NCBI GenBank assembly: GCA_017516315.1
Contig: JAFXDE010000049.1
Coordinates: 1 to 49,516 of the forward strand
Length of the DNA stretch: 49,516 nt
DNA from: Clostridia bacterium
GTDB taxonomy: Bacteria > Bacillota > Clostridia > Oscillospirales > Acutalibacteraceae
Direction of reading: 5' to 3'
A program made the translations under genes and the position numbers. The notes beneath the pieces are model-generated. The model had not been told where the DNA came from. It did no database searches and worked only from the letters and a program-made list of their open reading frames with translations. Shown here in pieces: positions 231-49,516 of this stretch (position 1 is its first letter; each line of letters opens with the position of its first letter).

Positions 231-447
231 CTTGAGCGGATGACGACTAATAGTTTTATTGAAACAAAGATAATAAACAGGTGCTTGCCATCCTCGCCTC
301 GCTTCATCCCGCACTGCGGGCGCTTCGGTGACGATGCAGCTTGAGCGATGCCGACTAATAGTTTCATTGAAACAAAAATAATAAACAGGTGCTTGCCATC
401 CTCGCCTCGCTTCATCCCGCACTGCGGGCGCTTCAGTGACGATGCAG
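231..447. repeat. 108-bp tandem repeat, two copies plus a stub
   Basis: Copy 1 (231-339) and copy 2 (340-447) are nearly identical, with about 108 bp between matching bases and one small indel near the start. A third partial copy begins at 448 and soon diverges. Each copy contains the module CTCGCTTCAT, hairpin, CGCTTC(G/A)GTGA (298-331 and 406-439). The same module occurs in the unrelated repeat at the right edge (49238-49271). The period is 36 codons, so any minus-strand frame stays open through both copies. Confidence 0.9.
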
Positions 448-611
448 CTCGAGCGACTGTAGAGCGAAGAGGTTTAGCCGAGCGAAGATAATTAATCTGT
501 GCTTTATTTTTTCTTGCAGTAGCTTTAAGATACAGCACTGCCGATAAAGGAATAAGCTCCGAGCCTTTGGGTTTATGACAGCGATGATGAAAGCACTTTA
601 AAAAATCAAGG

Positions 612-1439: not shown

Positions 1440-1448
1440 CTTTGTTGT

Positions 1449-1564
<116 letters not shown>

Positions 1565-4042: not shown

Positions 4043-7000
4043 ATGACAAAGAGAGTATTGGCATTTCTGATGTGCGCGGTGATGATTATTTCATCGACGC
4101 CTGCTTCGCCTTTGGCGGAAGTTTTCGACTTCGCGGTAGCTGCTTCTGCGGCGCAGGAGGGCTTCAAGGTAACCGTACCTAAGATTACGGTCTTTGAAAA
4201 AAGCGAGGGCAAGCTTGTCCCCGTGGCTACCTATAACGGAAATGTTATCGAAAGCGGCGTGACATATAAATGGTCCTCCTCGGATACCTCAGTGGCTACT
4301 GTCGATGAGAACGGTACAGTAAAGGGTATCTCTCCCGGTGAGGCAGATATTACCGTTATCGCTTCTTATCTCGGTATGGAGGTTACCTATACCCGTTCGG
4401 TGGAAATCATCCGCTTCAGAGAGGTCGATTCTCTCGAAACCGACATGAGTGCAAGCATAAGAATGATCGAGAAGGAAGAGAAAACCTTACGCGTAAGAGT
4501 TCTTCCCACCACCGCGACGGTAAAGGAGCTCGAGTGGGTCTCCTCCGATGAGAATGTTCTAAGGGTAGTCTCCTCGGGTACGGATGAGGAAAACAGCAGA
4601 GCCTATGCCAATGTGCAGGCAGTAGCCGAGGGTACTGCTACGGTGACCTACACCACTACCGACGGTACGAATAAGTCGGGTACCTTCACCGTAACGGTAA
4701 AGCCTCTCGTCAGATCTCTCTCTCTTCCTCCCTTTGTAGTTCTTACCACCGCTTCCTCGAGCTATGTTATAAATTATAAAATTCAGCCCACAAATGCGGG
4801 CAATCAGACTCTCCAGTGGTTAAGCGACAATACGGCAGTATGCTCTGTCGATGCTCTCGGTGTAATTACTCCCGGAGCAGGCAGACAGCCGGGCACCTGC
4901 TTTATTACTGCGAGAACCACCGACGGCAGTAACATCACGGCAAAGACCTATGTTATCGTTTCCGACGGAACGAAGAGCATTACCTTGGATAAAACCTCTC
5001 TTACCATGAAGGTGGGAGATAAGGATACCGACCTTACGGCTACTGCTGTTCTGAACTGCGGAATCGAGTACAAGGACGCCGTAAACTGGACCTCCTCGAA
5101 TACATCCGTTGCTACGGTAGATTCTCTCGGTATAGTTAAGGCTGTAGGTCCCGGTACTGCGAAGATTACTGCCTCAGCCGCTGACGGAAGTAACGTAAAG
5201 GCTGAATGTACCGTAAGCGTGACTCAGCCGGTAAACGGTGTGGGTCTTCCCGAAAAAGAGGTCTGCTGGATCGGCGGCACGGTTCTTCTTACACCGATTT
5301 TTATTCCCGCTAATGCCTCGGATAAAAGAGTTACCTGGTCCTCCTCGGATACCTCGGTAGCTACCGTTACCGATACAGGTCTCGTAACAGCTAAAAAGGA
5401 AGGTAAAACAGTAATCACCGTAACCACCCTCGACGGAAATTATTCCGCTTACTGTGAGGTAAGCGTCGAGGTTCCGCCTACAGCTGTAAAGCTTTCCGAT
5501 TCCTCTGTCGTTCTCAAGGTCGGAAACAGTGATTTCGATAATTATGAGCTCAGAGCTACCGTAGAGCCCTCAAACGCTACGAATAAAAGAGTAATCTGGT
5601 CTTCTTCGGACGAAAAGGTAGCCACCGTCGATGAAAACGGTAAGATAACTGCCGTGGCAGGCGGTACGGCTGTTATTACCTGTACTACCGAAAGCGGCGG
5701 CAAAAAGGCTGTATGTAATGTTACGGTCAATGAGGACGCTACGAGCATCTCCATCGTAAACGCTCCCACAGAGCTTTTCGTTACAAAGAATTATTATCTC
5801 CGTACAGCCTTCAATTCCGAGACGGTAACTAACAAAAAAGTGGTCTGGAGCTCCTCTAACCCCGGTGTTCTCGAGGTAGACCAGAACGGTAAGCTTACGG
5901 CAAGAGCCGAGGGCAGCTCCGTTATCACCGCTACCTATACCACCTCTGAGGGCGGAATACTTACTGCTCAGTGTACTGTTTTCGTAAGTGCGAAAATTTC
6001 CGTCGAAAGCGTCACTCTCAATATGAGCAAGGAAACGGTTTACACCAAGGTAGGCTCCAAGATTTACCTTTACGAAACCGTTCTTCCCTCCGATGCCAGC
6101 GATAAGACGGTTTCCTGGAAATCCAGTGCAAGCTCCGTAGCCGAGGTATTCACTAACGGCGGCACCGTAACAGCCAAGGCCCCCGGTACTGCACGTATTA
6201 CGGTAACCACCGCCGACGGAGGAAAGACCGACTACTGTACTGTCGTCGTTCTCGGTCCCATCCAGTTTGAAAAATCCTCAGTAAATGTCGGTGTAGGCCG
6301 TTCCGAGACTCTCAGGCTCATTTCCGAAAATCCCGATAATACGAAAATTACCTGGACCACCTCAAACTCCTCCGTAGCTTCTGTCGATGCCAACGGTATC
6401 GTTACGGGTAAAAAGGCAGGCACCGTTACCGTTACGGCTACTACTCCCGGCGGTCTCTACAGCGCCTCCTGTAAGGTCAATGTGGTTATCCCCGTAACGG
6501 GCGTAAAAATAAACGCTGACACCGTAACCGTTCCCAAGGGTGAAAAGAGAAGCGTTACCGTGTCGGTTCTTCCCTCCGATGCTACGGATCAAAGCGTTAC
6601 CTGGTCTACTCCCTCTCAGACCTTCCCTATTATCGAGGTAAGCTCCACAGGACTTATCGAGGGCAAGAGAGTAGGCACCACTACTCTTACCGTTACCACC
6701 AATGACGGAAGATACACAGATACTATCGATGTTGAGGTTATTCAGCCTGTTACAAGTATAGAATTCGAATACTCGAGCATTACTCTCGACGCGGGCAAGA
6801 AAAAGACTCTTTCTCCGCAGATAAGACCCATAAGTGCCACTAACAAGGATGTTAAATGGTCCTCAAGCAATAAAAGCATAGTTACGGTCGATTCAAAGGG
6901 CGTCGTTACTGCTGTTTCTGCCGGTACGGCTACCGTTACCTGTACCTCTGCTGACGGCTTCTGCAAGCAAACGGTGAAGGTAACCGTTACACAGCCTCCC

Positions 7001-10000
7001 ACGGGCATAAAATTCAGCTCAAAGAGCGTCACGGTGAAAATCGGTACTCCCGTGAAGCTTAATCCCACCGTATTGCCCGAAACGGCATCGAATAAAAATG
7101 TAGTATTCTCCTCCTCCGATGAGAAAATAGCCAAGGTTTCCGAAGACGGTACCGTAACGGGCGTTAAAAAGGGTACGGCGAAAATTACCGCTACCACAGC
7201 CAACAGCCTTTACAGCGCAGTTATTACCGTAAATGTCGAAAAGCCCGTAAAGAGCGTCAAGCTCAATAAGACCTCCGTTACCATCGCCGTAGGCAAAGCT
7301 ACTACCATCACAGCTACCGTAAGTCCTAAGAGCGCGACGAATAAGGACGTAAAATGGAAGTCGAGCGATAACGATGTAGTTACCGTTAAAAAGGGTAAAA
7401 TCACCGCCAAGGCACCCGGCTATGCGGTAATTACCTGTACTACCGTTGACGGAGGCAAGATAGCGGAATGTACCGTGTTCGTAAATCAGCCCGTAAAGAG
7501 CGTCAAGCTCAATAAGACGAAGGCTATTATGGACATAGACGAGAAAATAACTCTCAAGGCTACAATAAAGCCTTCAAATGCAAGCAACAAGGCTCTCAAA
7601 TGGACCTCGAGCAATAAAAAGGTCGTAAAGGTTACCTCAAAGGGTGTGCTTAAGCCTGTATCGACGGGTACGGCTACGGTTACCGTTACCTCTCTCGACG
7701 GCGGCTTCAAGGCTACCTGTAAGGTTACGGTAGTAAAGAGAGTCAAAGCTGTTACTCTTCCGAAAACCCTTACGGTTTATCTTGACGAAAAGGGCGATCT
7801 CGACCCGGTTCTCACTCCCAAAAAGCCGAGCAATTCCGATGTGAAGTGGAAATCGAGCAAAAAGAGCGTAGCTACCGTTTCAAAGACAGGTGTTATCACT
7901 CCGAAGAAAAAGGGTACTGCGAATATCACCGTCACCACAGATGACGGCGGCTTCAAGGCTACCTGTAAGGTTACCGTAAAAACCAAGCTCAAAAGCTTCA
8001 CTCTCAATAAAAAGAAGGTAACTCTCAATACGGGTGCAACCTTTACTCTCAAAGCAAACAGAAAGCCTTCGGGCGCTACCGAGGGTATAAAGTACACCTC
8101 AAGCAATAAGAATGTAGCTACCGTAAGCTCAAAGGGTGTAATCACAGCCACGGGCAGAGGTACGGCTACCATCACCGCTAAGAGCGAAAGGGGAATAACC
8201 GTAAAATGTAAGGTTACGGTAAAGCAGCCCGTAAATTCTATGTACATCAGCAGAACCAATGCTTATGTATATATGGGCGAAAGCCTCAGCCTTACGGCAA
8301 ATGTTCTTCCCAAGAACGCCAATAATCAGGCCTTTACATGGAGCAGCTCCGATACCTCTGTAGCTGCGGTAAACGGCGGAACTGTAACACCGAAGAGAGT
8401 AGGAACAGCCGTAATTACCGTAAAGAGCGCAAACGGTAAAACAGCCTCCTGTACCGTTACCGTAAGACAGCATGTAAACGGTATTTCTCTCGATAAAACA
8501 GCAGTTTCTCTCGAGGTAGGTAAAACCGCAGCCCTTAAGGCTTCCGTAAGTCCTGCCAATGCTACGGAAAAGGGCTGTACCTTCTCCTGCTCCGATGCAA
8601 AAATAGCCGAGGTCTCCGCCTCAGGTGTAATTACCGCCAAGGCGCCCGGTACGGCCACGGTAACCGTACGCTCAAAGGAAAACAATAAGACTGCAGTATG
8701 TAAGGTAACGGTTATAGAAAGAGTAACGGGTATCGAAATCAGCTCTACTGCCGAAACACTTTATGTAGACAAATACTCCGTAGGCGAAACTCTGATGCTT
8801 AATGTAACGGTCCTTCCCTCTAATGCTACAAACAAGGCAGTTACCTGGTCCTCCTCCGATGAAAGAGTGGCCAAGGTTTCTTCTGACGGCGTAGTTACTG
8901 CCGTAGGCTCAGGTGTAGCTCTCATTACCGCATCTACCGTAGACGGAAATAAAACAGCCGGCTGCAGTGTCACCGTTTTACAGCATGTTTCGGGTATAAC
9001 TCTCGACACTTCCTCAGTTACCGTAAATAAGGGACAGAGCATCAGACTTAATGCTACTGTAGAGCCTGAGGACGCCTTCAATAAAAACATTATCTGGACT
9101 TATGAAAACGAGCAGATAGCTACTGTGGATGAATACGGCTGGCTGACAGGCGTATCCGTAGGTAAAACCACCGTTTATGCCACTACCGTAGACGGGGAAC
9201 TCAGAGCAAGCTGTCTCGTAAAGGTAAATGAGCCCGTAACGGGAATCAGCCTCGACATAACAGAGGTAGACTCTCTTTACAGAGATAATCAGGTGCTTCT
9301 CACACCTACCGTATATCCCACCTCCGATTATGTGGCAGATGAAAATATAAACAGAGATGTTCTCTGGTCCTCCTCCGATGAGAATATAGCCAAGGTCGAA
9401 AACGGTCTTGTTACCGCTGTAGGTCCCGGTGAGGTTATTATCACCGCCACCACTGCAGACGGCGGCTTCGAGGCAGAATGTAAGCTTACCTGCTTTATGC
9501 CCGTAGATCTTATCACTACGGATAAGGATGTTTACTTTATCAAGGCAGGCGATCAATATAAGATAGAGCCTGCGGTTCTTCCCGAAAATGCTTCCTTCCC
9601 CGAGCTTCAGTGGACGGTAGTTTCGGGCGAAGGCTCCTTCTCCTGTGAGGACGGACTTATTACAGGTATCTCAAAGGGAAGCGGACTTGTAAGAATAACC
9701 AGCGTAGATAACCCCTCAGTAACCAAGGAAGTCGAAATCCGCATCGTAAAGAGGGTAGAGGGCGTAAGCCTCGATAAGACAGAGGTAACTCTCAATAAGG
9801 GTGAAACAGCTGCTCTCACGGCTACCGTAATGCCCAGCGATGCACATAATAAAAACTATAGCTTCGCATCCGACGATGAAAGCGTAGTAACCGTAAGCGA
9901 GGACGGCACAGTAACAGCCGTCGGCAGAGGTACGGCTAAAATTACCGTAACCACCGAGGACGAGGGCTGCACAGCTGAATGTATCTTTACGGTTAAGCAG

Positions 10001-12541
10001 TTAGCTGAAGAGATAGTCTTCTCCGAGGCAGAATATGTAGTAGGTGCAGGTAAAAATATTACTCTCGAGGCTGCTGTTCTTCCCGAAAATACTAACGATA
10101 AGAATCTTGATTGGGAATCCTCTAATTCCTCCGTCGCTACAGTCACCGACGGTGTGGTTACAGGTATCAGAGCAGGCGAGGCCTTCATCACGGCTACCGC
10201 TACGGACACGGGAACGGTTACAGCTTCTGTTAAGGTTACCGTAGTCGTTCACGCTGAAAAAATAGAGCTTACAGCGGAAACTGATTCCCTCTGGGTAGGT
10301 GACAGCACCGTTCTGAGTGCGAACATGCTTCCCGAGGACACCACGGACAAGACAGTTACATTTACCTCTTCAGACGAAAGCATCGCTACCGTAGACAGCG
10401 AGGGCAGAGTTACTGCTCTTTCGGCAGGGGAAACAGGTACCGCTACAGTCGTTATCAGGGCTGTATCAGCTTGTAGGAGCGCTGAAAGCGAATACATATT
10501 TACCGTAAGACAGCAGATAACCTCTATCGGAATAGCTGAGGAAGAAATCGTTCTTAAGCTCGGTGAGTCCTATACCTTCGAGCCTGAGGTTCTTCCCGAA
10601 AACGCTTTTGATAAGACGGTTACCTACATTTCTTCCGATGAGGAAGTGCTTACCGTAGAAAACGGTACGGTAACTACCGTAGGTACGGGAACTGCTACGG
10701 TTACTCTCCTTTCTGCCTGCGGTAAGGTCGAAAAGCAGTGCAGTATAAAGGTTATCGTGCTTCCGTCTGCTATAGATATGGAGAGCGAAATCTCCGTAGA
10801 AAAGACGAAGACCTATCAGTTAAACCCCGTCCTTTCACCCGATAATGTAACGGAAACAAAGCTTACCTATACATCTCTTAACGAGGATATTGCCACAGTA
10901 GACGAAAACGGCACCGTCACCGCCCATAAGGCAGGGGAGGCTGTTATCAGAGTACAGAGCGAGGTTGAGGAGGTATTTGCCGAATGTAAGGTAAACGTCT
11001 ATGTTCTCAGCGAAAGAATAGAGCTTACCGATGAAAGGTACGAGCTTTACATAGGTGAGGAATTTACTCTCGGCGCTACAGTCCTTCCCGAGGATACTAC
11101 AAATAAGAATGTAACCTTTGCCTCTTCTGAGGATGAAATTATTACTGTCGGTGACGACGGTAAGGTCAAGGCAATCAGTAAGGGTACAGCCACCGTCACG
11201 GTAACAGCTGAAGACACAGGTATTACCTCTGTTTGCGAGGTTACCGTAAGAAAGCATGTAGAGGGCATCACCATGAACGAGGATGCACTCACCTATGCAG
11301 GCAGAAAGCTTCAGCTTACGGCTGAAATAGCACCTGCCGATGCAGATAATAAGAATATCATCTGGAGAGTAAGCGACGACAGAACTGCTTCGATCACTTC
11401 TGACGGTCTTCTTACGGCTCACGAAAAGGGCTTCGTTCTCGTAACTGCAGAGACAGAGGACGGCGGCTTCAAGGCTGTCTGCTTCGTGGAAATCAGAACG
11501 GGTATTGACTCTGTGGCTCTTAATAAGGAAAGCCTTCTTCTCGACAGAGGAGCCACCGAGACTCTTACCTTCTCCGTTCTTCCCGCCGATGCTGACGAGA
11601 AAAGGGTTATCTGGACCTCCTCCGACCCGACTGTAGCAGATGTAGACAGCGAGGGTAAGATAACCGCTACGCAGAAGTCAGGTACGGCAGTAATCCGAGC
11701 GACGGCGGCTGATAATCCCGAGGCTTATGCGGAATGTACCGTAACGGTAAAGACTCCTCTCGAAACTATTTTCCTTCAGGAAAACTCCGTAGCCTTAAGA
11801 AAAAATGAAACGAAAGCACTGACGGTCGTTTACCGTCCTGCAGATGCGACCATAAAGGATGTCACATTCAGAAGCGATGACAGCGAAATCGCCTCCGTAG
11901 ACGAAAACGGTATTATTACTGCACACTCGGCAGGTGAGGTAAATATCACCGTAACCTCTCTCGAGGGCGGATATACCACCGTATGTAAGGTCAAGGTTTA
12001 TAAGGAAATAGAGAGCTTCTCTTCACTTCCCCTCGTTATGAGTAAGGGTACAGAGGCCGTCTGCAGAGTAGCTGCAGAGCCCTTTGATCACGATGAAGAG
12101 CTTATCTTCTCCTGCGATAAGGAGGAAATAGCTACGGTAAGCGAGGACGGCGTAGTAACGGCTAAGATGCCCGGCACGGCAAATATTACCGTAAAGGGCA
12201 GTATTTCGGGCGTAAGCCACTCCTTCACCGTTACCGTAAAGGAACCCGTTACAGGCGTAGAATTCGAAAGAGAAAGTGCTACCGTAGAAAAGAACGGCTA
12301 TATTCTCGTAGGCTACTCGGTTCTTCCCGGTAATGCAGATAATATAGAAAGCATAGTAATCACCTCCTCCGACGAGGAAACGGCGAAGATTATCTATGGA
12401 GAGGACGGTACTACAGACGGTACTGTTCAGGGTCTCAAGGCAGGTACGGCAGAAATTACTGTAACCGTTACCACTAATGACGGTGTCTTCACCGACAGCT
12501 ATACTCTTACGATAACAGAGCCTCAGACCGAGCAGGAATAA
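4043..12541 (+). CDS. Giant exported Ig-like (Big_2) repeat protein
   Basis: A 2832-residue exported protein. The start codon is followed by a basic N-terminus and a hydrophobic core (VLAFLMCAVMIISS) typical of a signal peptide, with probable cleavage near an AxA in residues 33-36. The rest is a chain of roughly thirty or more bacterial Ig-like group 2 domains of 80-90 residues. Each carries the signatures WSSSDxxVATV, a GxxTAxxxGTAxITxT strand pair and C-V-V near its end. Such domains form stiff stalks on surface adhesins. I see no LPxTG, S-layer or choline-binding anchor, and it ends in EPQTEQE, so its mode of retention is unknown. Residues about 1070-1395 are very lysine-rich while the part beyond about 1650 is rich in Asp and Glu. 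The promoter is at 3907 and the gene stands alone. Confidence 0.93.
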   Translation: MTKRVLAFLMCAVMIISSTPASPLAEVFDFAVAASAAQEGFKVTVPKITVFEKSEGKLVPVATYNGNVIESGVTYKWSSSDTSVATVDENGTVKGISPGEADITVIASYLGMEVTYTRSVEIIRFREVDSLETDMSASIRMIEKEEKTLRVRVLPTTATVKELEWVSSDENVLRVVSSGTDEENSRAYANVQAVAEGTATVTYTTTDGTNKSGTFTVTVKPLVRSLSLPPFVVLTTASSSYVINYKIQPTNAGNQTLQWLSDNTAVCSVDALGVITPGAGRQPGTCFITARTTDGSNITAKTYVIVSDGTKSITLDKTSLTMKVGDKDTDLTATAVLNCGIEYKDAVNWTSSNTSVATVDSLGIVKAVGPGTAKITASAADGSNVKAECTVSVTQPVNGVGLPEKEVCWIGGTVLLTPIFIPANASDKRVTWSSSDTSVATVTDTGLVTAKKEGKTVITVTTLDGNYSAYCEVSVEVPPTAVKLSDSSVVLKVGNSDFDNYELRATVEPSNATNKRVIWSSSDEKVATVDENGKITAVAGGTAVITCTTESGGKKAVCNVTVNEDATSISIVNAPTELFVTKNYYLRTAFNSETVTNKKVVWSSSNPGVLEVDQNGKLTARAEGSSVITATYTTSEGGILTAQCTVFVSAKISVESVTLNMSKETVYTKVGSKIYLYETVLPSDASDKTVSWKSSASSVAEVFTNGGTVTAKAPGTARITVTTADGGKTDYCTVVVLGPIQFEKSSVNVGVGRSETLRLISENPDNTKITWTTSNSSVASVDANGIVTGKKAGTVTVTATTPGGLYSASCKVNVVIPVTGVKINADTVTVPKGEKRSVTVSVLPSDATDQSVTWSTPSQTFPIIEVSSTGLIEGKRVGTTTLTVTTNDGRYTDTIDVEVIQPVTSIEFEYSSITLDAGKKKTLSPQIRPISATNKDVKWSSSNKSIVTVDSKGVVTAVSAGTATVTCTSADGFCKQTVKVTVTQPPTGIKFSSKSVTVKIGTPVKLNPTVLPETASNKNVVFSSSDEKIAKVSEDGTVTGVKKGTAKITATTANSLYSAVITVNVEKPVKSVKLNKTSVTIAVGKATTITATVSPKSATNKDVKWKSSDNDVVTVKKGKITAKAPGYAVITCTTVDGGKIAECTVFVNQPVKSVKLNKTKAIMDIDEKITLKATIKPSNASNKALKWTSSNKKVVKVTSKGVLKPVSTGTATVTVTSLDGGFKATCKVTVVKRVKAVTLPKTLTVYLDEKGDLDPVLTPKKPSNSDVKWKSSKKSVATVSKTGVITPKKKGTANITVTTDDGGFKATCKVTVKTKLKSFTLNKKKVTLNTGATFTLKANRKPSGATEGIKYTSSNKNVATVSSKGVITATGRGTATITAKSERGITVKCKVTVKQPVNSMYISRTNAYVYMGESLSLTANVLPKNANNQAFTWSSSDTSVAAVNGGTVTPKRVGTAVITVKSANGKTASCTVTVRQHVNGISLDKTAVSLEVGKTAALKASVSPANATEKGCTFSCSDAKIAEVSASGVITAKAPGTATVTVRSKENNKTAVCKVTVIERVTGIEISSTAETLYVDKYSVGETLMLNVTVLPSNATNKAVTWSSSDERVAKVSSDGVVTAVGSGVALITASTVDGNKTAGCSVTVLQHVSGITLDTSSVTVNKGQSIRLNATVEPEDAFNKNIIWTYENEQIATVDEYGWLTGVSVGKTTVYATTVDGELRASCLVKVNEPVTGISLDITEVDSLYRDNQVLLTPTVYPTSDYVADENINRDVLWSSSDENIAKVENGLVTAVGPGEVIITATTADGGFEAECKLTCFMPVDLITTDKDVYFIKAGDQYKIEPAVLPENASFPELQWTVVSGEGSFSCEDGLITGISKGSGLVRITSVDNPSVTKEVEIRIVKRVEGVSLDKTEVTLNKGETAALTATVMPSDAHNKNYSFASDDESVVTVSEDGTVTAVGRGTAKITVTTEDEGCTAECIFTVKQLAEEIVFSEAEYVVGAGKNITLEAAVLPENTNDKNLDWESSNSSVATVTDGVVTGIRAGEAFITATATDTGTVTASVKVTVVVHAEKIELTAETDSLWVGDSTVLSANMLPEDTTDKTVTFTSSDESIATVDSEGRVTALSAGETGTATVVIRAVSACRSAESEYIFTVRQQITSIGIAEEEIVLKLGESYTFEPEVLPENAFDKTVTYISSDEEVLTVENGTVTTVGTGTATVTLLSACGKVEKQCSIKVIVLPSAIDMESEISVEKTKTYQLNPVLSPDNVTETKLTYTSLNEDIATVDENGTVTAHKAGEAVIRVQSEVEEVFAECKVNVYVLSERIELTDERYELYIGEEFTLGATVLPEDTTNKNVTFASSEDEIITVGDDGKVKAISKGTATVTVTAEDTGITSVCEVTVRKHVEGITMNEDALTYAGRKLQLTAEIAPADADNKNIIWRVSDDRTASITSDGLLTAHEKGFVLVTAETEDGGFKAVCFVEIRTGIDSVALNKESLLLDRGATETLTFSVLPADADEKRVIWTSSDPTVADVDSEGKITATQKSGTAVIRATAADNPEAYAECTVTVKTPLETIFLQENSVALRKNETKALTVVYRPADATIKDVTFRSDDSEIASVDENGIITAHSAGEVNITVTSLEGGYTTVCKVKVYKEIESFSSLPLVMSKGTEAVCRVAAEPFDHDEELIFSCDKEEIATVSEDGVVTAKMPGTANITVKGSISGVSHSFTVTVKEPVTGVEFERESATVEKNGYILVGYSVLPGNADNIESIVITSSDEETAKIIYGEDGTTDGTVQGLKAGTAEITVTVTTNDGVFTDSYTLTITEPQTEQE

Positions 12542-26320: not shown

Positions 26321-26400
26321 GAACACAGGGGACGGTTCTGTGTGTTTCGCTCTAACAGGAGAAATTGAATACTGAACACACAGAACCGTCCCCTGTGTTC
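26321..26400. repeat. 26-bp inverted repeat of the GGGGACGGTTCTGTG type
   Basis: Left arm 26321-26346 and right arm 26375-26400 are perfect reverse complements, each containing GGGGACGGTTCTGTGTG or its complement, around a 26-nt loop (26347-26374 region). The AACCGTCCCC core is a known interspersed palindrome in many bacteria, often linked to REP-associated tyrosine transposases. No such gene is in the window. It could also act as a transcript-end hairpin for hemW. Confidence 0.92.
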
Positions 26401-29822: not shown

Positions 29823-32800
29823 ATGAAAAAGAAACATTTATTAAACATGAAGAAAACTTTGTCAGTATTTTTGTCAGTGATGATGCTTCTTACTGCATGG
29901 GTATTTGTTGCGCCTGAGCATAGTAATGTAAGTGCTGCTGATATTGTTTCAGCTACTGAGAGTTATAACAAATCTCTGCTGAATAGCATCAACACGGCTA
30001 TTGATACAACTATGACTACTACTTACGGTAAATTCAAAAGTGACGGTATGAACGGTGATGACGAGGCTCCTTATAACACTGACGCTTACCGTTCCAAGCA
30101 CTATAAGAACATTTTCTATTCACCTACTGTAGACATAAACGGATATGCTGTTTATTGGGGCAGCGATGTCATTTCCGGTATTGACTCGGTAAGACTTTAT
30201 TATCCGGATACTGTTATGCTCTATGACGGCGACACCAAACCTCAGATGGGTGCTGTTGTATGTCTTGACGCTGCTAGCGGCGGCAGAGTAAGAGCTGTGT
30301 CATTATATATTGACAGCAATGATAACGGCCTTGTAATCACAGACCACTGGAAGGGACATACCACCGCCAACCTTGCTCATCTCATTAATATTGAAAATGG
30401 TTCTTATAAGTTTGCTAACACTTACGCGGAACATGGTACTTACAAAATAAACACCGAATCAAACGGTCAGTGGTATTTCTATGCTTCTGATCTTCGCTTT
30501 GACGGTACCCTTAATGCAACCGAATGGGTTAGAACCATAACTCCCACCTGGGGCTTTTACGGCGGTAAAAGAAATACAGCAAACAGATATACTAAGGTAG
30601 CAACTAAGACTATCTATGTTATGAACATCAAGGGTTACCGTGATCTTGTTAGCACAATCGCTACTGATAAGGCTAAATATATCGATAATGCTGCTCGTTA
30701 TACTTCTGAATCAATTAAAGCTTATGTAAACGCAGCTAACGCTATTCTTAACCTCAACCCCAAAAATGTTTCACAGAATATGTCTGCTGTCAGTACATGG
30801 GGTACGAGCATGAGCACAGCGTATACTAATTATATAAATGCAAAGAACAGCCTTAAAAACAGAGAGTTTGATGTTACCTTCGAAAATATGTTCTCTGTTT
30901 CTGATTGGAAAAACTCTGCGTCAGCAGAAGTAAGCAATACTAACGCTGATCTTACTGTTAATGACGATACAGGTTTTATCCGCATCTGGAAGGGTGTGGC
31001 AAATGATGTTTACTCGAGCTGTTCAAACGGTGATCACGATGCAAACAAGTATTCTGTTTCTGTTACATCGGGAGGAAGTTACACCTTAAGCTTTGATACT
31101 GAGACCAGCCAAAGCGGCGGAGAGGTTAGATCTCAGGCGGCTTTATATTGGTTTGATATAAACGGTTATTCTGTCGGAAGTCCTACAGTGTTAGATTTCA
31201 GCGGAGACAGCGAAAGACACACGGCTGAAATTACTGTTCCGTCAAATGCAAGACAGGTAGAATTCCGTTTCGGTAACAGATGTACTACATCAGGCTCTAC
31301 GGTATATTTTAAAAATATCGCATTTTATCCTACGGAACGCGGCACTGAATACGGTATCGAAGAATGGACCACACGCCCTGTCACAAAAGCATATACATAC
31401 AACGCTGCTCTTGGCTCTATTCTTCCTGTTCCTGCAAGAAACGGCTACACATTCAACGGATGGTATCTCGACGGAAATGTAACAGCTGACGGTAAGCCTC
31501 AGGACGGTGAATGGGTTACAGACGGTAACGGTACAGTTGTGTCTGAGACACAGAGCTTTAAGATAGCAGCTCATTATAATCTTTATGCGGATTGGTCAGC
31601 AAGCGACTATACCGCTGCTTTTGAAGGAAACGGCGGTACTGCTTCCAGCACATCTCTTGGCTATACAATAATCGGAACTGTAAAGCTTCCTCCCGCTACG
31701 AAAAGCGGATATGAATTTGATTGTTGGAAAGTAACGGCAGCTTCCGGTAATTGGAAAGTCGGAGATACATACAGTGCAGGCGAGACTTTGACAGGTATGT
31801 ACGGTGATGTTACTCTTACTGCTCAGTGGACTAAGACCTGGACCGTAACATTCCTTAAGGCTGACGGTACAACTTTCGTTACACGTACTGTAAGGGACGG
31901 CGAAGCCGCTGAAGCTCCTGCTCAGAATCCTACCAAGGCTTCCGATGATAACGGCAAGTATACCTTTACCGGATGGGATGTGGACTTTACAAATGTAACG
32001 AGTGACCTTACCGTTACTCCTCAGTTCGATGTTGATTCTCACGGTAATTTCACATATAGTCTCGTTTCACCGGCTACATGTACCAAAAATGCGATAGTAA
32101 CCAAACGATGCGGTGACTGTAACTATAGCTACGGTAATGTAGAATACGACGGAACAGAAAGAGAAGATTGGCTCGCTAAAGATCACGATTTCCAGAACGG
32201 ATCAATTATAAAAGATTCCTACATCGGTGATGCAAGCAATCAGACAGATACAGATACCCATGTAAGAAAGTGTAAGAACTGTACTGAAACAATTACAGAG
32301 ACTCACGAAAATTCTTGGTATATATTAAAAACTGAAGGTGCTACCTGTACCACACCCGGTACTGTTTACTGGGAATGTCCTTGCGGCGCTCAGAAGACCA
32401 CACAGGGTGATACAGCTCCCAATGTACATAACTTTGACGGTACAGTAATCACTCCGATGGGTGACGGAACTCACGATGTTCATTGTACTTACGATAACTC
32501 CCACACCACAAATGTTAAATGTACGGATGCGAACAATGACTGTATCTGTGACGTAGCAGCATGCGGACAGGAGCTCGTTCACGTTTACGATCAGCAGAAG
32601 GCTGAAAAGGCTTACGAGAAAACTCCCGCTACATGTACAGATGACGCTGTTTATTACTACGCCTGTAAGTGCGGTAAGAAGAGCGATAGTGAAACCTGGA
32701 CTGATGAAGGCTCCGCTACAGGCCACACCTGGTTGAATGAAGGCACCGATCTCGCTACACTCGCAGAATGCGAAAAGGATGCAACATATTATCAGACCTG

Positions 32801-35800
32801 TGAAAAGTGCGGCATCTCAGCAAGATATGATACCACAAACACAGGCTCAACCTGGACTGATGAAGGCTCCGCTACAGGCCATGATTACACCGGTACAGAC
32901 ATCCGCGATAATGAAAACGGAACACATTCTTACTATTGTGTAAACGGCTGCGGTACTTACGGCTATAACAAAGTAAAAGATGCAGGTAAAGACTGTACCT
33001 ACGGCGAATGGTCAAAGACAGAAGAAACTACTCACACCAAGACCTGTTCAGAATGTTATTACAAAGTAACTGAAGAGCATAAGTGGTCGGCTTGGACATC
33101 TACAGACCTCTATAAAGAAGCAAATGGCGAACAGACCCGTACTTGCTCCGTATGTAAAAAGGTAGAAACCAAGGCTTGCGATTATGAAGTAACTCATAAG
33201 GATGCAACCTGTACAGCTCCCGAAATCACTACATATAAGTGTAAGGATTGCGGTCACGGCTACACAGTAACAGGCAAAGCTGCTACAGGTCACGATTACA
33301 CAGATACAGCTGATGTGAAGTCTTATAACGGACAGCACAGCTACGGCTGTACTAAGTGTGATACCTACGGCTTTAACAGTATGGAAAATGCCCGTGAGGC
33401 TTGTAGCTACGGCTATGAAAAGACTGCAGACGGTCAGCATAAGGCTACCTGTGAAGTATGTAAATATAACTTCACTGAAAACTGCGTTGCAGCTGAGGGC
33501 AAAGAAGCTACCTGTTCGGCTCTCGCTGTCTGCGGAAAGTGCGAGGAAGAATTCGGCGGTTACGCTGCACATAGCTTTACCGCTGAGGGCGGTGCAGTAG
33601 CACTCGGAAACGGTAAACACGCATATCGTTGCGAAAACTGTAAGGATGAAACTAAGTACGGTATCGGCGCAAATGTAGGCGCCTACCAGGACTGCTCGGG
33701 CGGCGAAGCTACCTGTTCAGCTCCCGCTGAATGTGAAGTATGCGGCCAGGCATACGGTAGTGTTAATGCAAACGCTCACGTATGGGGCGATTGGGCAAAT
33801 GTCGAAGGTACAGAAACACATAAGCGCGTATGTACGTTGAATGGCACACATACACAGACACAGGATTGCTTATGTACTTCTCCCACAGCAACTTCTCCTG
33901 ACTGTAATACTCCCAGCTACACATATAATACCTGTGACGATTGCGGCCATGAATGGCAGACAGCTAACGATGATGCTCTCGGTCACGATTGGAGTAGTGC
34001 TTGGGTAAGTGACGGTAAGGGAAATCATACAAAAACCTGTGCACGCGGATGTTCCTATGCTGACAATACTCTCACAGAAGCATGTGCTGATGCAGAGCCT
34101 GTAGTACATGAAGCTACATGTACTGAGGACGGCTATACAGCTTATATCTGTGACGGTTGCAGCTATGAGTGGGAAGGTAATACCGTTTCCGCTACCGGTC
34201 ACAGCTACGCAAATAAGAATCAGTCAGAAGCTGAAGAATATAAGAGATCTGACAAATCCTGCACCACAGACTTAACCTACTGGTATGTCTGCGATAACTG
34301 CGATGCAAGTGCTGAAGCAGATGCGGAAAGCGGAAAATTCGAATTAACCGATCTTTACTGGATGCCTGCAGGCGGCGAACAGACAGGACACAGCTTTGAC
34401 GAAAAGTGCGATAAATATCCTGCTTCTCCCGCTACATGCACAGAGAAAGCAACCTATTACTACTCTTGCTCAAACGAGGGATGTAATGAAAAGGGTACAG
34501 AAACCTACGAATCAGGCGAGGCTCTCGGTCACAAGTGGGTACATCCCGCAGATGAAGAGCTTGCAAATTATAATGTTATTAAGGCAGACTGCGTAACTGA
34601 TGCTACATACTATTATGTATGTGAGAGATGTGATATCTCTTCACAGGGCGTGAAGGCAGACGGAGAAACCTGGACTGATGTCGGCTCTAAGTTAGGTCAC
34701 GACTTCGACCATGACGACGATGGCGAGCTTAAGGACGAAGGCGACACCGGATATACAGCATATAAGGCTGCTGATTGCTTCGAGGAAGGCTCCTTAGAGC
34801 ATTGGACCTGTGAGAGATGCGCTAAGAAGTTCAGCGATAAGGACGATAACGGCTCCGAGCTTACGGACACAGTTCTCGTTAAACGCAATCACGCTTTGGT
34901 TACTGTTTACGGTAAGAGCGCTACCTGCGAAGAGCCCGGTTACACAAAGCATAAGATGTGTAGCCATAATGGCTGTAATTACAGAGATGCTGACTATCAG
35001 GTGATTCCCGCTACGGGTCACGAGTTCCTTGCTGAGAAAGGCTACTATGCTGATGCAGAAAACGGATGTCATGCTTACAAGTGTGCTAACTGTGATGTAT
35101 ACGGCGTAGGCGATGTTAAGTACGAGGTAGCTGACGGCGTAGTTAAGGGTGCTGTCGAATGTACCTTCAGCGGTGAATATGTAAACTTCGACGACGAAAA
35201 CGGTGTTCACTGTCATAAGCAGCTCTGCGCATGCGGTAACGAAGAAAGCACAGTATGTACTGCTGCTGAAACTGAAAAGGTAGATGTTACCTGTACAGAA
35301 GACGGTTATTATAAGTATACTTGCGCTTGTGGCTTCGAATGGACAGAAACAAGCGAAGACGAAGCAGATCAGGCTAAGGGACATTCACTTAAGGTTGATT
35401 CTAACGGTAACGGCACTCATACAGAATACTGTGAGAATTGCGATTACGCTACAGTAACAGAGAAATGCTCTACTGAAGAGCCTGCAGCCGCATGCGGTAA
35501 GAAGGAAATCTGTGATATCTGTTTAGCTGAATACGGTGATCCCGTTGCTCACTCCTTTACAGTTTATGTTCACGATGAAAACAGCGAAAAGTGCCAGATC
35601 GACGGTACAAAGACCGCTAAGTGTGACAACTGCGATGCAACCGATACAGTTACAGACGAAGGCACTGCTCTTGACCATAAGATGACAGATTGGACCTATG
35701 ACCTTTCCGATTGGGCTGAAATGCCTGAGGACTTCGATGAGGATAGCATCCTTGAGCCCACCTGTCATACAGCAGGTAAGCAGATTAAGTACTGTACTAA

Positions 35801-36593
35801 TGAAGACTGCGGATATTATGAGACTCAGACCGTTAAGGCTGACGAAAATCTTCATCAGTGGGCAGTAGATGCAGACGGTAAGGAATTATGGACTATCGTT
35901 TCCGGTGACTGCGGTACAGGCGTTACTCTCGAAAACGAATGTACTGTAGAGGGCTGTAATGAAGTCCGTACAAAGACCGAAGAAGCAGGCCATAGCTGGG
36001 TAGTTATCAATTATATCGCTCCCACATGCGAAAAGAACGGCTACAGAGAGCTCCGCTGTGAGGTTTGTCATCAGACAGAAGACCGTTACTACAGTGAAGC
36101 TAAGCACGAAGAGTTAGGTGATGAATACGAGGATGCAGATCTCGAAAAGACCGGTGAGCATACCTTGGTATTTATCAGCGAAACACCTGCAACCTGTGCA
36201 AAGAATGCTTACATCACCGAAAAGTGCATTACCTGTAACGGATATTTCATTACCGAAACAGAAGGCACGATCCTTGAGCATAATCTTGTCGCCTATAAGG
36301 GCGTAGCAGCTACCTGCGAGGAAGCAGGCTACACTGATTATCAGAAGTGCTCAGACTGCGGTACAGTAGTAGGCAAGACAGAAATTCCTGCTACAGGTCA
36401 CGGCGAGCTTGACGAAAACGGCAAGTGTGAGGATTGCGGCAGAGTAGTTTACGACAGCGAAAACGGCAAATCCTGCGGCTGTATCTGCCATAAGGAAAGC
36501 GGCTTGATGAAGCTTCTCTATAAGATTCTTAACTTCTTCTGGAAGCTCTTCAAAATAAGCAAGACCTGCAGCTGCGGTAATGTTCACTGGTAA
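29823..36593 (+). CDS. Giant exported cysteine-rich repeat protein
   Basis: A 2256-residue exported protein. Residues 1-39 are a signal peptide (basic start, then SVFLSVMMLLTAWVFVA). Residues 40-330 are unassigned. Around 350-490 is a beta-rich carbohydrate-binding-like module (YSVSVTSGGSYTLSFDT). From about 510 to 740 come InlB B-repeat-like units (NGYTFNGWYLDG). From about 746 to 2190 run dozens of Cys repeats of the form ATCT..G...Y.C..C, often ending in ATGH. I count more than 100 cysteines, rare in exported Gram-positive proteins. Residues 2216-2256 form a tail with CGCICHKES, a hydrophobic/aromatic stretch and CSCGNVHW. Metal binding or disulfides are possible. Confidence 0.92.
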   Translation: MKKKHLLNMKKTLSVFLSVMMLLTAWVFVAPEHSNVSAADIVSATESYNKSLLNSINTAIDTTMTTTYGKFKSDGMNGDDEAPYNTDAYRSKHYKNIFYSPTVDINGYAVYWGSDVISGIDSVRLYYPDTVMLYDGDTKPQMGAVVCLDAASGGRVRAVSLYIDSNDNGLVITDHWKGHTTANLAHLINIENGSYKFANTYAEHGTYKINTESNGQWYFYASDLRFDGTLNATEWVRTITPTWGFYGGKRNTANRYTKVATKTIYVMNIKGYRDLVSTIATDKAKYIDNAARYTSESIKAYVNAANAILNLNPKNVSQNMSAVSTWGTSMSTAYTNYINAKNSLKNREFDVTFENMFSVSDWKNSASAEVSNTNADLTVNDDTGFIRIWKGVANDVYSSCSNGDHDANKYSVSVTSGGSYTLSFDTETSQSGGEVRSQAALYWFDINGYSVGSPTVLDFSGDSERHTAEITVPSNARQVEFRFGNRCTTSGSTVYFKNIAFYPTERGTEYGIEEWTTRPVTKAYTYNAALGSILPVPARNGYTFNGWYLDGNVTADGKPQDGEWVTDGNGTVVSETQSFKIAAHYNLYADWSASDYTAAFEGNGGTASSTSLGYTIIGTVKLPPATKSGYEFDCWKVTAASGNWKVGDTYSAGETLTGMYGDVTLTAQWTKTWTVTFLKADGTTFVTRTVRDGEAAEAPAQNPTKASDDNGKYTFTGWDVDFTNVTSDLTVTPQFDVDSHGNFTYSLVSPATCTKNAIVTKRCGDCNYSYGNVEYDGTEREDWLAKDHDFQNGSIIKDSYIGDASNQTDTDTHVRKCKNCTETITETHENSWYILKTEGATCTTPGTVYWECPCGAQKTTQGDTAPNVHNFDGTVITPMGDGTHDVHCTYDNSHTTNVKCTDANNDCICDVAACGQELVHVYDQQKAEKAYEKTPATCTDDAVYYYACKCGKKSDSETWTDEGSATGHTWLNEGTDLATLAECEKDATYYQTCEKCGISARYDTTNTGSTWTDEGSATGHDYTGTDIRDNENGTHSYYCVNGCGTYGYNKVKDAGKDCTYGEWSKTEETTHTKTCSECYYKVTEEHKWSAWTSTDLYKEANGEQTRTCSVCKKVETKACDYEVTHKDATCTAPEITTYKCKDCGHGYTVTGKAATGHDYTDTADVKSYNGQHSYGCTKCDTYGFNSMENAREACSYGYEKTADGQHKATCEVCKYNFTENCVAAEGKEATCSALAVCGKCEEEFGGYAAHSFTAEGGAVALGNGKHAYRCENCKDETKYGIGANVGAYQDCSGGEATCSAPAECEVCGQAYGSVNANAHVWGDWANVEGTETHKRVCTLNGTHTQTQDCLCTSPTATSPDCNTPSYTYNTCDDCGHEWQTANDDALGHDWSSAWVSDGKGNHTKTCARGCSYADNTLTEACADAEPVVHEATCTEDGYTAYICDGCSYEWEGNTVSATGHSYANKNQSEAEEYKRSDKSCTTDLTYWYVCDNCDASAEADAESGKFELTDLYWMPAGGEQTGHSFDEKCDKYPASPATCTEKATYYYSCSNEGCNEKGTETYESGEALGHKWVHPADEELANYNVIKADCVTDATYYYVCERCDISSQGVKADGETWTDVGSKLGHDFDHDDDGELKDEGDTGYTAYKAADCFEEGSLEHWTCERCAKKFSDKDDNGSELTDTVLVKRNHALVTVYGKSATCEEPGYTKHKMCSHNGCNYRDADYQVIPATGHEFLAEKGYYADAENGCHAYKCANCDVYGVGDVKYEVADGVVKGAVECTFSGEYVNFDDENGVHCHKQLCACGNEESTVCTAAETEKVDVTCTEDGYYKYTCACGFEWTETSEDEADQAKGHSLKVDSNGNGTHTEYCENCDYATVTEKCSTEEPAAACGKKEICDICLAEYGDPVAHSFTVYVHDENSEKCQIDGTKTAKCDNCDATDTVTDEGTALDHKMTDWTYDLSDWAEMPEDFDEDSILEPTCHTAGKQIKYCTNEDCGYYETQTVKADENLHQWAVDADGKELWTIVSGDCGTGVTLENECTVEGCNEVRTKTEEAGHSWVVINYIAPTCEKNGYRELRCEVCHQTEDRYYSEAKHEELGDEYEDADLEKTGEHTLVFISETPATCAKNAYITEKCITCNGYFITETEGTILEHNLVAYKGVAATCEEAGYTDYQKCSDCGTVVGKTEIPATGHGELDENGKCEDCGRVVYDSENGKSCGCICHKESGLMKLLYKILNFFWKLFKISKTCSCGNVHW

Positions 36594-47559: not shown

Positions 47560-48966
47560 ATGGAAAAAGAAAAAAGCGCAGCAGAAGCTCTCAGAGAAGA
47601 GCTTATGATGAAAAAGGAGCATTTTTCCGTGGCAATGAGTGAGGAAGAGGTAGCTAAGGCAGACAAGTTCTGCGAAGGCTATATGAAATTCCTGGGTGAA
47701 GCCAAAACGGAAAGAGAATGTGTAGATTATATGGTCGAAAAGGCAGAAAAGCTCGGTTTTACCGCCTTCGATAAAACAAAGACCTACAAGCCCGGCGACA
47801 AGGTATATCTTAATAACAGAGGCAAAAGCATCATTCTTGCCCTTATGGGTAAGCAGGGCGCTAAAAACGGTGTCAAGATAGTCGCTTCTCACATCGATTC
47901 TCCCCGTCTCGACCTCAAACCTACACCTCTTTACGAGGACAGCGAGCTTGCATACTTCAAGACTCATTACTACGGCGGTATCAAAAAGTATCAGTGGGTA
48001 GCTATCCCTCTTTCTCTTCACGGCGTTTTCGTCAAAGCTGACGGAACAAGCGTGAAGGTAAACATCGGAGAAAAGGAGGGCGAGCCTAAATTCGTAGTTA
48101 CCGACCTTCTTCCCCATCTCGGTAAGGAGCAGGGTCAGCGTACTCTCTCTGACGGTATCAGAGGAGAAGAGCTTAACATTCTTATCGGCTCCAGACCCTT
48201 CAAGGACGATAAGGGCAGTGAGCTTGTGAAGCTTAACATCCTCAAGCTTCTCAATGAAAAATACGGCATCGTGGAAAAGGATTTCATCTCTGCAGAGCTG
48301 GAGCTTGTTCCTGCATTCCCCGTTTCTGACATCGGCTTCGACAGAAGTCTCATCGGTGCTTACGGTCACGATGACAGAGTGTGTGCATATCCTGCCTGCG
48401 AGGCTGTTTTCGACTGCGAGATTCCCGAGCGTACAGTTATGGCTGTTCTTGCTGACAAGGAGGAAATCGGCTCTGACGGTAACACAGGACTTAATTCTGC
48501 TTACCTTAAGTATTTCATCGAAGACCTTGCACAGCTTGACGGTGTAGACGGCAGAGACGTGCTTTCGAAGTCCGAATGTCTTTCCGCTGATGTTAATGCA
48601 GGCTTCGACCCCAACTTCCCATCAGTACACGACAAGTATAATGCCTGCGCACTTAACCACGGTGCAGTAATCACCAAGTACACAGGTGCAAGAGGTAAGT
48701 CAGGCACATCTGATGCCAGTGCAGAATTTGTAGGAAAAATCCGCAGAATCCTCGACGGCGCTAATGTTTCCTGGCAGATAGGTGAGCTCGGAAAGGTCGA
48801 TGAGGGCGGCGGAGGAACTGTCGCTATGTACATCGCTAACCTCGGTATGGATGTAGTAGACTTAGGCGTTCCCGTGCTTTCCATGCACGCACCCTACGAA
48901 ATTGTTTCAAAGGCAGACGTATACAGCACCTACAGAGCTTGTTTTGAATTCTTTAAGGCTGAATAA
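47560..48966 (+). CDS. M18-family aminopeptidase
   Basis: A 468-residue zinc aminopeptidase of the M18 (aspartyl aminopeptidase, ApeB-like) family. Metal-binding parts are ASHIDSPRLDLKP with His111, GHDDRVCAYPA near 270, DKEEIGSDG near 305 and the final His in SMHAPYE near 441. KVDEGGGGTVAMYIA is typical of the clostridial members. It releases N-terminal residues from peptides in the cytoplasm. The start is 2 bp after the SLT gene stop, and a strong terminator follows. Confidence 0.95.
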   Translation: MEKEKSAAEALREELMMKKEHFSVAMSEEEVAKADKFCEGYMKFLGEAKTERECVDYMVEKAEKLGFTAFDKTKTYKPGDKVYLNNRGKSIILALMGKQGAKNGVKIVASHIDSPRLDLKPTPLYEDSELAYFKTHYYGGIKKYQWVAIPLSLHGVFVKADGTSVKVNIGEKEGEPKFVVTDLLPHLGKEQGQRTLSDGIRGEELNILIGSRPFKDDKGSELVKLNILKLLNEKYGIVEKDFISAELELVPAFPVSDIGFDRSLIGAYGHDDRVCAYPACEAVFDCEIPERTVMAVLADKEEIGSDGNTGLNSAYLKYFIEDLAQLDGVDGRDVLSKSECLSADVNAGFDPNFPSVHDKYNACALNHGAVITKYTGARGKSGTSDASAEFVGKIRRILDGANVSWQIGELGKVDEGGGGTVAMYIANLGMDVVDLGVPVLSMHAPYEIVSKADVYSTYRACFEFFKAE

Positions 48967-48972
48967 AATAAC

Positions 48973-49011
48973 AATACTCCCGACCTGAAAATCGGGAGTA
49001 TTAATTTTTTT
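48973..49011 (+). terminator. Terminator of the prfA-to-aminopeptidase operon
   Basis: AATACTCCCGA (48973-48983), 8-nt loop, TCGGGAGTATT (48992-49002), then AATTTTTTT. Confidence 0.92.
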
Positions 49012-49145
49012 AAAAACAAAAATTTAGATTACCTTTACTGTGGCGGAGTAGGAGAGACTCACCCCTCTTGCGGTTCCCAAAGCTCATTACGGCTTGGAGC
49101 GCCTATGAGCTTTGACCGCTGCGCCTCGTCGTCACAAACTGCATA

Positions 49146-49181
49146 TCACTCGTTTTCGTATTCATACAAAAACTCATTCAT
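49146..49181 (-). CDS. Micro-ORF in right-edge repeat, copy 1
   Basis: ATG at 49181 with AGGAGG (49196-49191) 9 nt upstream encodes MNEFLYEYENE, then TGA (49148-49146). The same frame continues open for 28 more codons, including CDDEAQRSK and NELWEPQEG, to a second TGA at 49061-49059. Expression is not proven. It may be an 11-residue peptide, a 40-residue product if the first TGA is recoded, or a by-product of a structured RNA. Confidence 0.45.
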   Translation of the reverse strand: MNEFLYEYENE

Positions 49182-49318
49182 TTCGTTGCTCCTCCTCTTC
49201 CCAAAAAGTCTCACGACTTTTCGGGAGTCCTGTACTACTCGCTTCATCTCCCGCAGGGAGCGCTTCGGTGAGTACGCCCGCGCCTTCGTCGCTCGAGTTC
49301 GAGATGCTTACTGAAAGT

Positions 49319-49352
49319 AAAAAAATAAAGGTAACCTTTCGATTACCTTTAT
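49319..49352 (-). terminator. Terminator after repeat copy 2
   Basis: On the minus strand ATAAAGGTAA, 8-nt loop, TTACCTTTAT (49352-49325) is followed by seven T (49325-49319). It lies right after the CCA-like end of copy 2, so the repeat appears to be a transcribed unit on the minus strand. Copy 1 keeps only one arm. Confidence 0.82.
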
Positions 49353-49459
49353 CGTGGCGGAGTAGGAGAGACTCACCCCTCTTGCGGTTCCCAAAGTTCA
49401 TTACGGCTTGGAGCGCCTATGAGCTTTGACCGCTGCGCCTCGTCGTCACAAACTGCATA

Positions 49460-49495
49460 TCACTCGTTTTCGTATTCATACAAAAACTCATTCAT
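49460..49495 (-). CDS. Micro-ORF in right-edge repeat, copy 2
   Basis: Same 11-residue product, ribosome site and in-frame TGA (49462-49460) as copy 1, 314 bp away. The single difference within the extended frame (GAG versus GAA, Glu) is synonymous. Confidence 0.45.
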   Translation of the reverse strand: MNEFLYEYENE

Positions 49496-49516
49496 TTCGT
49501 TGCTCCTCCTCTTCCC

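Follow-up and report, generated by a model that had tools for sequence, protein, structure and literature searches.

The hairpin that an initial annotation had recognised near both ends of a 49,516-nt stretch of clostridial DNA (the window) is the 5' half, domain 1, of an approximately 110-nt element of two stem-loop domains, hereafter called E. Its stems covary, its copies are dispersed through genomes behind a G at the 5' junction, they adjoin halves of tRNA genes, and in one host repeat they lie on either strand. Taken together, we judge that E is probably a miniature mobile element of Clostridia, found 3' of a G or a run of Gs and often in or beside hairpin loops, among which the D-, anticodon and T-loops of tRNA genes stand out.

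Results and Discussion

A pattern search of the window returned exactly three copies, all on the minus strand, at 298-331, 406-439 and 49238-49271, while none was expected from 100 shuffles. This search confirmed that the three share one frame with a single mismatch at 406-439, as had been claimed, and the comparison of the stems CCCGC/GCGGG on the left with CTCCC/GGGAG on the right likewise bore out 5-bp stems with 3-nt loops that differ at two pairs, both changed in a compensatory manner. Coincidence was rejected by these shuffles, by the pairing of the inner and outer stems and by the covariation of the core. Apart from the hairpin, the repeat families of the two edges had been taken as unrelated, which proved wrong, as the right copy is a full E carrying an inserted module of about 109 nt, after which the second half of the same element follows, and the left copies are half-elements lacking domain 2. 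The direct repeat GAAGCG noted around the hairpin more plausibly represents both strands of an internal loop, itself conserved, that separates two covarying stems. As the window is an entire contig (C2) of a metagenome-assembled genome (MAG) with 57 contigs and 82% completeness, its two edges coincide with the contig ends and fall within repeats. The coordinates of all features are collected in Table 1.

Table 1. Parts of E, host repeats and tRNA remnants located in the window.
Feature	Positions	Strand	Remarks
Left copy 1, domain 1 only (P1, internal loop GAAGCG/ATGAAGCGA, inner hairpin P2)	287..340	-	R1 61.7 bits at 291-334
Left copy 2, domain 1 only, tandem unit 108 bp from copy 1	395..448	-	R1 56.5 bits at 399-442
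Two 108-bp tandem units of the host repeat bearing the left copies	239..454	.	Repeat family D13, 95% identity
Right copy, domain 1 (P1 GTACT..AGTAC, P2 CTCCC/GGGAG)	49232..49277	-	R1 47.3 bits at 49231-49274
Hairpin-rich module between domains 1 and 2 of the right copy	49123..49231	-	Ends set by eye
Right copy, domain 2 (P3 GCGGT/ACCGC, P4, tail AAGAG)	49065..49122	-	
Domain 2 of the next tandem unit	49379..49436	-	Its domain 1 would fall past the contig end
Right-edge repeat family D7			180-nt repeat, spacing 314
tRNA-Ser(GCT), last 20 nt, unit 1	49041..49060	-	Directly downstream of the element
tRNA-Ser(GCT), last 20 nt, unit 2	49355..49374	-	
Terminator-like hairpin with T-run	49319..49350	-	As after tRNA-Ser(GCT) on contig C4; here after unit 2 only

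Elsewhere, the window contains a 5S rRNA gene (1448-1564, minus strand), a perfect 26-bp inverted repeat enclosing GGGGACGGTTCTGTG (26321-26400, with a similar stretch in L213) and two giant open reading frames, one of 2832 aa (4043-12541) with 29 Big_2 (bacterial Ig-like) stretches and one of 2256 aa (29823-36593) with a weak match to the Listeria-Bacteroides repeat.

Domain 1 of E consists of the outer stem P1 around the conserved internal loop, which in turn surrounds the inner hairpin P2, while in domain 2 the stem P3 encloses P4. By comparing the flanks of relatives we derived the form present in the window's genus, type A, which is preceded by G and reads 5' to 3' CAT-N5-CC, GAAGCG, C-NNN-C, NGY, G-NNN-G, ATGAAGCGA, GG-N5-ATG, GCGCA, GCGGT, C, the P4 hairpin, GGGN, ACCGC and AAGAG. 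The 3-nt loop takes the form NGY in 94 of 97 aligned cores, and across the genus the frame recurs with new stems (CCCGC, CTCCC, CGTCC, CACCC, CTCGC and CCGCC, each with its complement), in a list that also contains chance matches without stems. Many copies elsewhere keep domain 1 with domain 2 replaced by other sequences, and the type A start CATCGTC is not retained in other genera, in which P1 varies freely. All 49 CAT-type copies have G at position -1, with GGG in 23 of them, and this G could be part of the element itself. In L095 and L096 a single element holds two tandem domain 1 hairpins, of which the second has a covarying outer stem to itself.

In a core alignment of 97 sequences, 93.1% of cells were paired, a percentage that leans upward because rows had to show five P2 pairs and no fewer than 5/8 P1 pairs to be admitted (the window's right copy being added by hand as the one exception), and 310 cells had changed on both sides; none of 500 shuffles reached either value, and in slid registers pairing fell to 35-55%. 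Less telling was the number of pairs in which any double change occurred, a value that 15 of 500 shuffles attained. Without this filter, all five inner pairs were Watson-Crick in 86 of the 107 listed genome-collection matches with usable flanks, where among the inner pairs the search pattern had fixed only the outermost C...G. The outer stem, lying outside that pattern, was paired at 8/8 positions in 48 of these 107 matches against 3.9 expected on row shuffles. Twenty-three of the 107 failed the combined stem criteria and were dropped before further counts, among the failures L070, L144, L149 and L185 with a perfect inner and a poor outer stem. For the whole element, an alignment of 42 rows (type A and near relatives, one row being a partial window copy) had 88.6% of cells paired and 249 changed on both sides, again with neither value reached in 500 shuffles, while the counts of pairs with a double change and of further pair types were reached by 5 and 33 of 500, respectively. 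P3 (GCGGT/ACCGC) is invariant and therefore uninformative for covariation, and P5 at the tip of P4 is paired in 70.6% of cells. Both domain 1 stems and the long domain 2 stem thus covary far above shuffles and shifted registers. One copy of E is predicted to fold into this structure as RNA and as either DNA strand, with z-scores of -4.3 to -5.2.

A model of the 44-nt E core (R1) was searched against genus and order. Within the window's genus R1 matched 31 of 34 genomes with 1-24 matches each, the 24 being found in genome G031, and within the order 49 of 197 genomes (29 of 111 genera), where the strict filters applied may have lost weak matches. Among the 80 listed loci with a title (37 further loci have none), 10 were non-clostridial and all 10 failed the stem test; the other titled matches among those listed include Oscillospiraceae, Ruminococcaceae, Lachnospiraceae, Oscillibacter, Dysosmobacter, Faecalibacterium and Ruminococcus. 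The isolate carriers Oscillibacter valericigenes and Ruminococcus flavefaciens 007c have copies of E. These genus-wide and order-wide data support the proposed covariation with conserved flanks, the pair statistics lying far above shuffles, and the claim withstood our looking for genome-wide copies with non-compensatory stem changes or unconserved flanks. Viral contigs gave nine matches, with five stem pairs in four of them (L186, L188, L189 and L194), four in L190, L192 and L193, of which only L193 resembles E by its flanks as judged by eye, and fewer than four in two.

Dispersal is illustrated by G031, where 20 loci were fetched and eight copies fit the full-length pattern with 79-95% mutual identity. 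The elements at L235 and L239 are 94% identical, their upstream flanks 48%. This genome (L255-L314) contains dozens of copies of two host repeats, H1 (GGTCAAGCTTTTACAAAAGCTTG followed by GGG and a GC hairpin) and H2 (AAGTTCTTTGGGTTACCTTTCTTTCAAGAAAGGTAACGCC). The 45-nt upstream flanks of its E copies are 80-89% identical among four H1 copies and 65% between two H2 copies, as against 40-54% where the sites differ in kind. L235 and L242 have both flanks in common, and some H1 copies may have spread as composites of H1 plus element. Empty and filled versions could be compared as paralogous sites, not as one site before and after insertion: H2 reads TTTGGGTTACC when empty (L287) and TTTGG-element-GACTACC when filled (L252/L293), while H1 reads GCAGGG-TGAGGGGCAGCGCCCCTCATC when empty (L281) and GCAGGG-element-AGCAGAGGGGCAGAGCCCCTCATC when filled (L242), with similar DNA on both sides. 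No target duplication beyond G or GG was seen between the filled and empty H2 paralogues. Several E copies lie at contig ends of MAGs.

E is furthermore nested with other hairpin repeats. In G031 the apical loop of P4 harbours such a repeat, which is visible with both its sides in L247, L250 and L251, while the P4-loop insertions of L237 and L238 run into the contig end. Read on the other strand, the P4-loop repeat consists of GGGGAGATGTC, a variable hairpin and GACAGAGGGGA, apparently a constant frame around a variable hairpin as well. A third module follows directly after GAAGCGA in L248-L252, the same point as in the right copy of the window. This nesting, together with the tRNA junctions described below, suggests insertion into loops, and selection against stem-destroying insertions could produce the same pattern of nesting and junctions.

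Within 45 nt upstream of the 169 E copies with sufficient flank, tRNA 12-mers were found on the same strand in 32 copies and on the other strand in 3; downstream, the corresponding numbers were 27 and 2, and reversed controls gave 0 on both sides. Two arrangements recur. In the first, mode 1 (18 rows from 16 loci; Leu, Met, Pro, Ser, Asn, Lys, Thr), a 5' tRNA part is followed by the element and an intact tRNA, and 11 of the 18 rows share a leader of 0-10 nt, a length that could fit the start of the tRNA transcript. In the second (8 rows, one incidental; Ser, Pro, Asn, Trp, Met), an intact tRNA is followed by the element and a 3' tRNA part. Across the 26 aligned rows, in which local alignment may shift a junction by a few nt, 15 junctions fall inside the D-loop or no more than two nt from it (raw positions 18-23), four in the anticodon arm (raw positions 31, 37, 39 and 42; two just outside the loop, one inside the stem) and five in the T-loop, with tRNA-Ser counted back from the 3' end; the remaining two rows comprise L218, an interrupted fragment, and the incidental one. 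Ten tRNA-element pairs were excluded, two on opposite strands and eight scoring below 14. In some tRNA-Ser copies (L211, L216) the tRNA resumes past the element, the gene being split. Proximity to tRNAs counted in gaps (7/37 versus 5/101, p 0.016) is weak evidence because mechanical ORFs cover many gaps, and the raw tRNA density near E, 21 times that of the rest of the same loci (17 versus 9 tRNAs), is inflated by intergenic bias.

On its minus strand, the right edge of the window carries two units spaced 314 bp apart. In each of them the 3'-terminal 20 nt of tRNA-Ser(GCT) come after domain 2, and one unit has kept the tRNA-Ser(GCT) terminator. In the relative G016 the order is tRNA-Ser(TGA), tRNA-Ser(GCT), terminator, element, tRNA end, element, tRNA end. 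In the MAG of the window, contig C4 opens within the final 53 codons of an M18 aminopeptidase gene that the window shares (98% identity), and no element was found at its two tRNA-Ser genes in the 700 nt read. C4 is an element-free version of the window's right edge and may come from another strain. The MAG contains two versions of the region behind the M18 aminopeptidase gene (L355 versus window 48790-49516), one lacking and one bearing the element array, reflecting a strain mixture or an assembly fork. At the start of contig C7 (L356), E adjoins the 3' end of a tRNA-Trp in an arrangement that by eye resembles the end of an integrative element.

We propose that E would move as folded single-stranded DNA, and that a putative trans-acting enzyme would read its stems, the internal loop GAAGCG/ATGAAGCGA and the invariant GCGGT/ACCGC stem. 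Insertions in tRNA genes would presumably survive only beside a remaining intact tRNA copy, which would explain the pairs of half and intact tRNAs.

Whether the hairpins act as DNA or as RNA was approached through their G-U pairs, compared here as rates from related sequences and not as independent counts. G-U pairs occupy 2 of 485 cells in P2 and 5 of 527 paired cells in P4, while P1, with about 29 of 689, is closer to the 19 of 310 found in the acceptor stems of tRNAs from the same loci (46 of 48 tRNAs fitted the acceptor rule and were used). That G-U pairs are so few in P2 and P4 suggests maintenance of complementarity at the DNA level, by recognition of folded single strands or by mutual correction of the arms during replication. 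One alternative dispenses with transposition: template switching during replication would keep the stems complementary, and copies would spread by recombination between repeats or tandem tRNA genes. The almost strictly Watson-Crick P2 and P4, the tandem arrays and the inverted complements seen by eye beside tRNA remnants (Ser, Met, Pro) fit this explanation, which we nevertheless consider unlikely given the 94% identical copies at unrelated sites and the G preceding all 49 CAT-type copies.

Regarding orientation, the host repeat H2 carries E on either strand, each time after Gs (L239/L252 versus L240 and L243). After 18 of 88 loci overlapping an ORF had been dropped, the gene upstream of E lay on the same strand in 28 cases and on the opposite strand in 20, and the downstream gene in 24 and 21, respectively, so that E has no clear orientation bias relative to neighbouring genes. 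Near tRNAs, E lies almost always in the tRNA sense, which is equally expected from a process at the RNA level. E fused to tRNA halves might be a selected structured RNA expressed from tRNA promoters, putatively a decoy, a sponge or a tRNA-like regulator, a reading with which this sense orientation, the conserved internal loop, the invariant P3, the well-preserved 5' tRNA parts beside E and the tolerance of P1 for G-U would agree. A match number ranging from 0 to 24 within one genus, the use of either strand of H2, the near absence of G-U from P2 and P4 and the lack of an Rfam match to E make it improbable. In the window, Rfam 15 at gathering score matched the 5S rRNA only, and in 32 loci searched at relaxed thresholds it returned tRNAs and sub-gathering matches such as a 3' piece of tmRNA outside E in L210. 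Even less probable appears a route in which E RNA is joined to loop-cut tRNA pieces and then copied into DNA by a reverse transcriptase: it would account for junctions mostly in or beside single-stranded tRNA loops and for the leader common to 11 of 18 mode 1 rows, yet E occurs in both orientations within H2 and RVT_1 is missing in six carriers. In a sample of 14 hand-chosen genomes, with G026 as a non-carrier, RVT_1 was absent from seven, six being carriers, including G016 (97% complete, 5 matches), G179 and G066.

The search for an enzyme that could move E, covering proteins that flank it and the families Y1_Tnp, RVT_1 and IS110, gave no candidate. Among 127 E-flanking proteins (132 picked by script, five omitted: L081:1536-4937, L147, L162, L168 and L173:4369-4710), no Pfam family occurred in more than three, and a tRNA integrative element with its own tyrosine recombinase was rejected on this basis; full copies of about 110 nt are moreover too short to hold a recombinase gene. 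An IS110 or bridge-RNA element was likewise dismissed, as DEDD_Tnp_IS110 (PF01548) scored above the cut-off in only 2 of the 14 genomes, and a DDE-type MITE because aligned copies have no terminal inverted repeat by eye and the H2 duplication does not exceed G or GG. The single-stranded hairpin logic with a short 5' target recalls REP/RAYT or IS200/IS605 elements, of which E could be a derivative moved by a resident Y1 transposase, and Y1_Tnp was indeed found in 17 of 28 genomes searched. It is absent from the carriers G000, G007, G094, G124, G189 and G106 (64-100% complete, some being incomplete MAGs), and E is not a 20-40 bp GTAG or CGTC hairpin. A REP with an E-flanked RAYT/Y1 gene was not seen at the ten Y1_Tnp loci fetched, where no convincing cis copy occurred and the best R1 match was weak and partial (14.8 bits, E-value 0.03, about 0.8 kb away), so we give this origin little credence. 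None of the classes searched genome-wide (Y1_Tnp, RVT_1 and IS110) occurred in all carriers examined, absences that MAG incompleteness limits. The view of the hairpin as a recognition site of a mobile repeat system thus holds for the mobile repeat, while a known mobile system finds no support, no transposase family being linked to E; as a whole, the initial interpretation is partly supported.

Several known repeats share traits with E. The bcr1 repeat of the Bacillus cereus group, a different group of hosts, is a structured intergenic repeat with mobile-element traits as well; unlike for E, we know of no junctions with tRNA loops for it. Integrative elements that use tRNA sites through tyrosine recombinases cross over in tRNA arms and, like E, leave an intact tRNA and a leftover part. 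In contrast to these, E is only about 110 nt long, uses many tRNA types and three loops and has no linked integrase. REPs, as described in the main text of PMC3733652, are 20-40 bp palindromes, most of them tagged GTAG or CGTC, and resemble E as dispersed palindromic intergenic repeats with heterogeneous stems that are thought to be non-autonomous mobile DNA, the CGTC families sharing with E the lack of a linked transposase (PMC3733652). A REP, however, is a single 20-40 bp hairpin with a terminal tag, whereas E comprises about 110 nt, two domains and a conserved internal loop (PMC3733652). E therefore falls outside the REP definition, though it may work alike. The terms Clostridi- and Firmicutes are both absent from that main text (PMC3733652). 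Rickettsia palindromic elements, which according to the same text insert into protein genes, are gene-inserting palindromic repeats as E is, the genes in the case of E being tRNA genes, in addition to other hairpin repeats (PMC3733652). The portion of PMC2267715 consulted holds nothing closer to E, and by titles and abstract openings, mostly of non-subscription papers, we found no description of E in the literature.

Conclusion

We regard E as a probable miniature structured mobile repeat, its preference for tRNA loops being the unusual part. Only tentatively, and with more doubt than confidence, would we go further and regard coding-free two-hairpin DNA of about 110 nt as a new minimal class of mobile element that inserts into the loops of folded sequences, tRNA genes foremost, through an enzyme or host process yet to be found, and that nests with similar repeats. 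In Clostridia of gut and rumen, E is a structured element that is conserved and diversifies rapidly, and for which Rfam 15 has no match. It disrupts tRNA genes within or next to their loops, and an undamaged copy frequently adjoins. Its copies document, as a natural data set, how DNA hairpins covary and how tRNA genes are damaged, and identifying its mover would test whether insertion is directed to hairpin loops or to base sequence.
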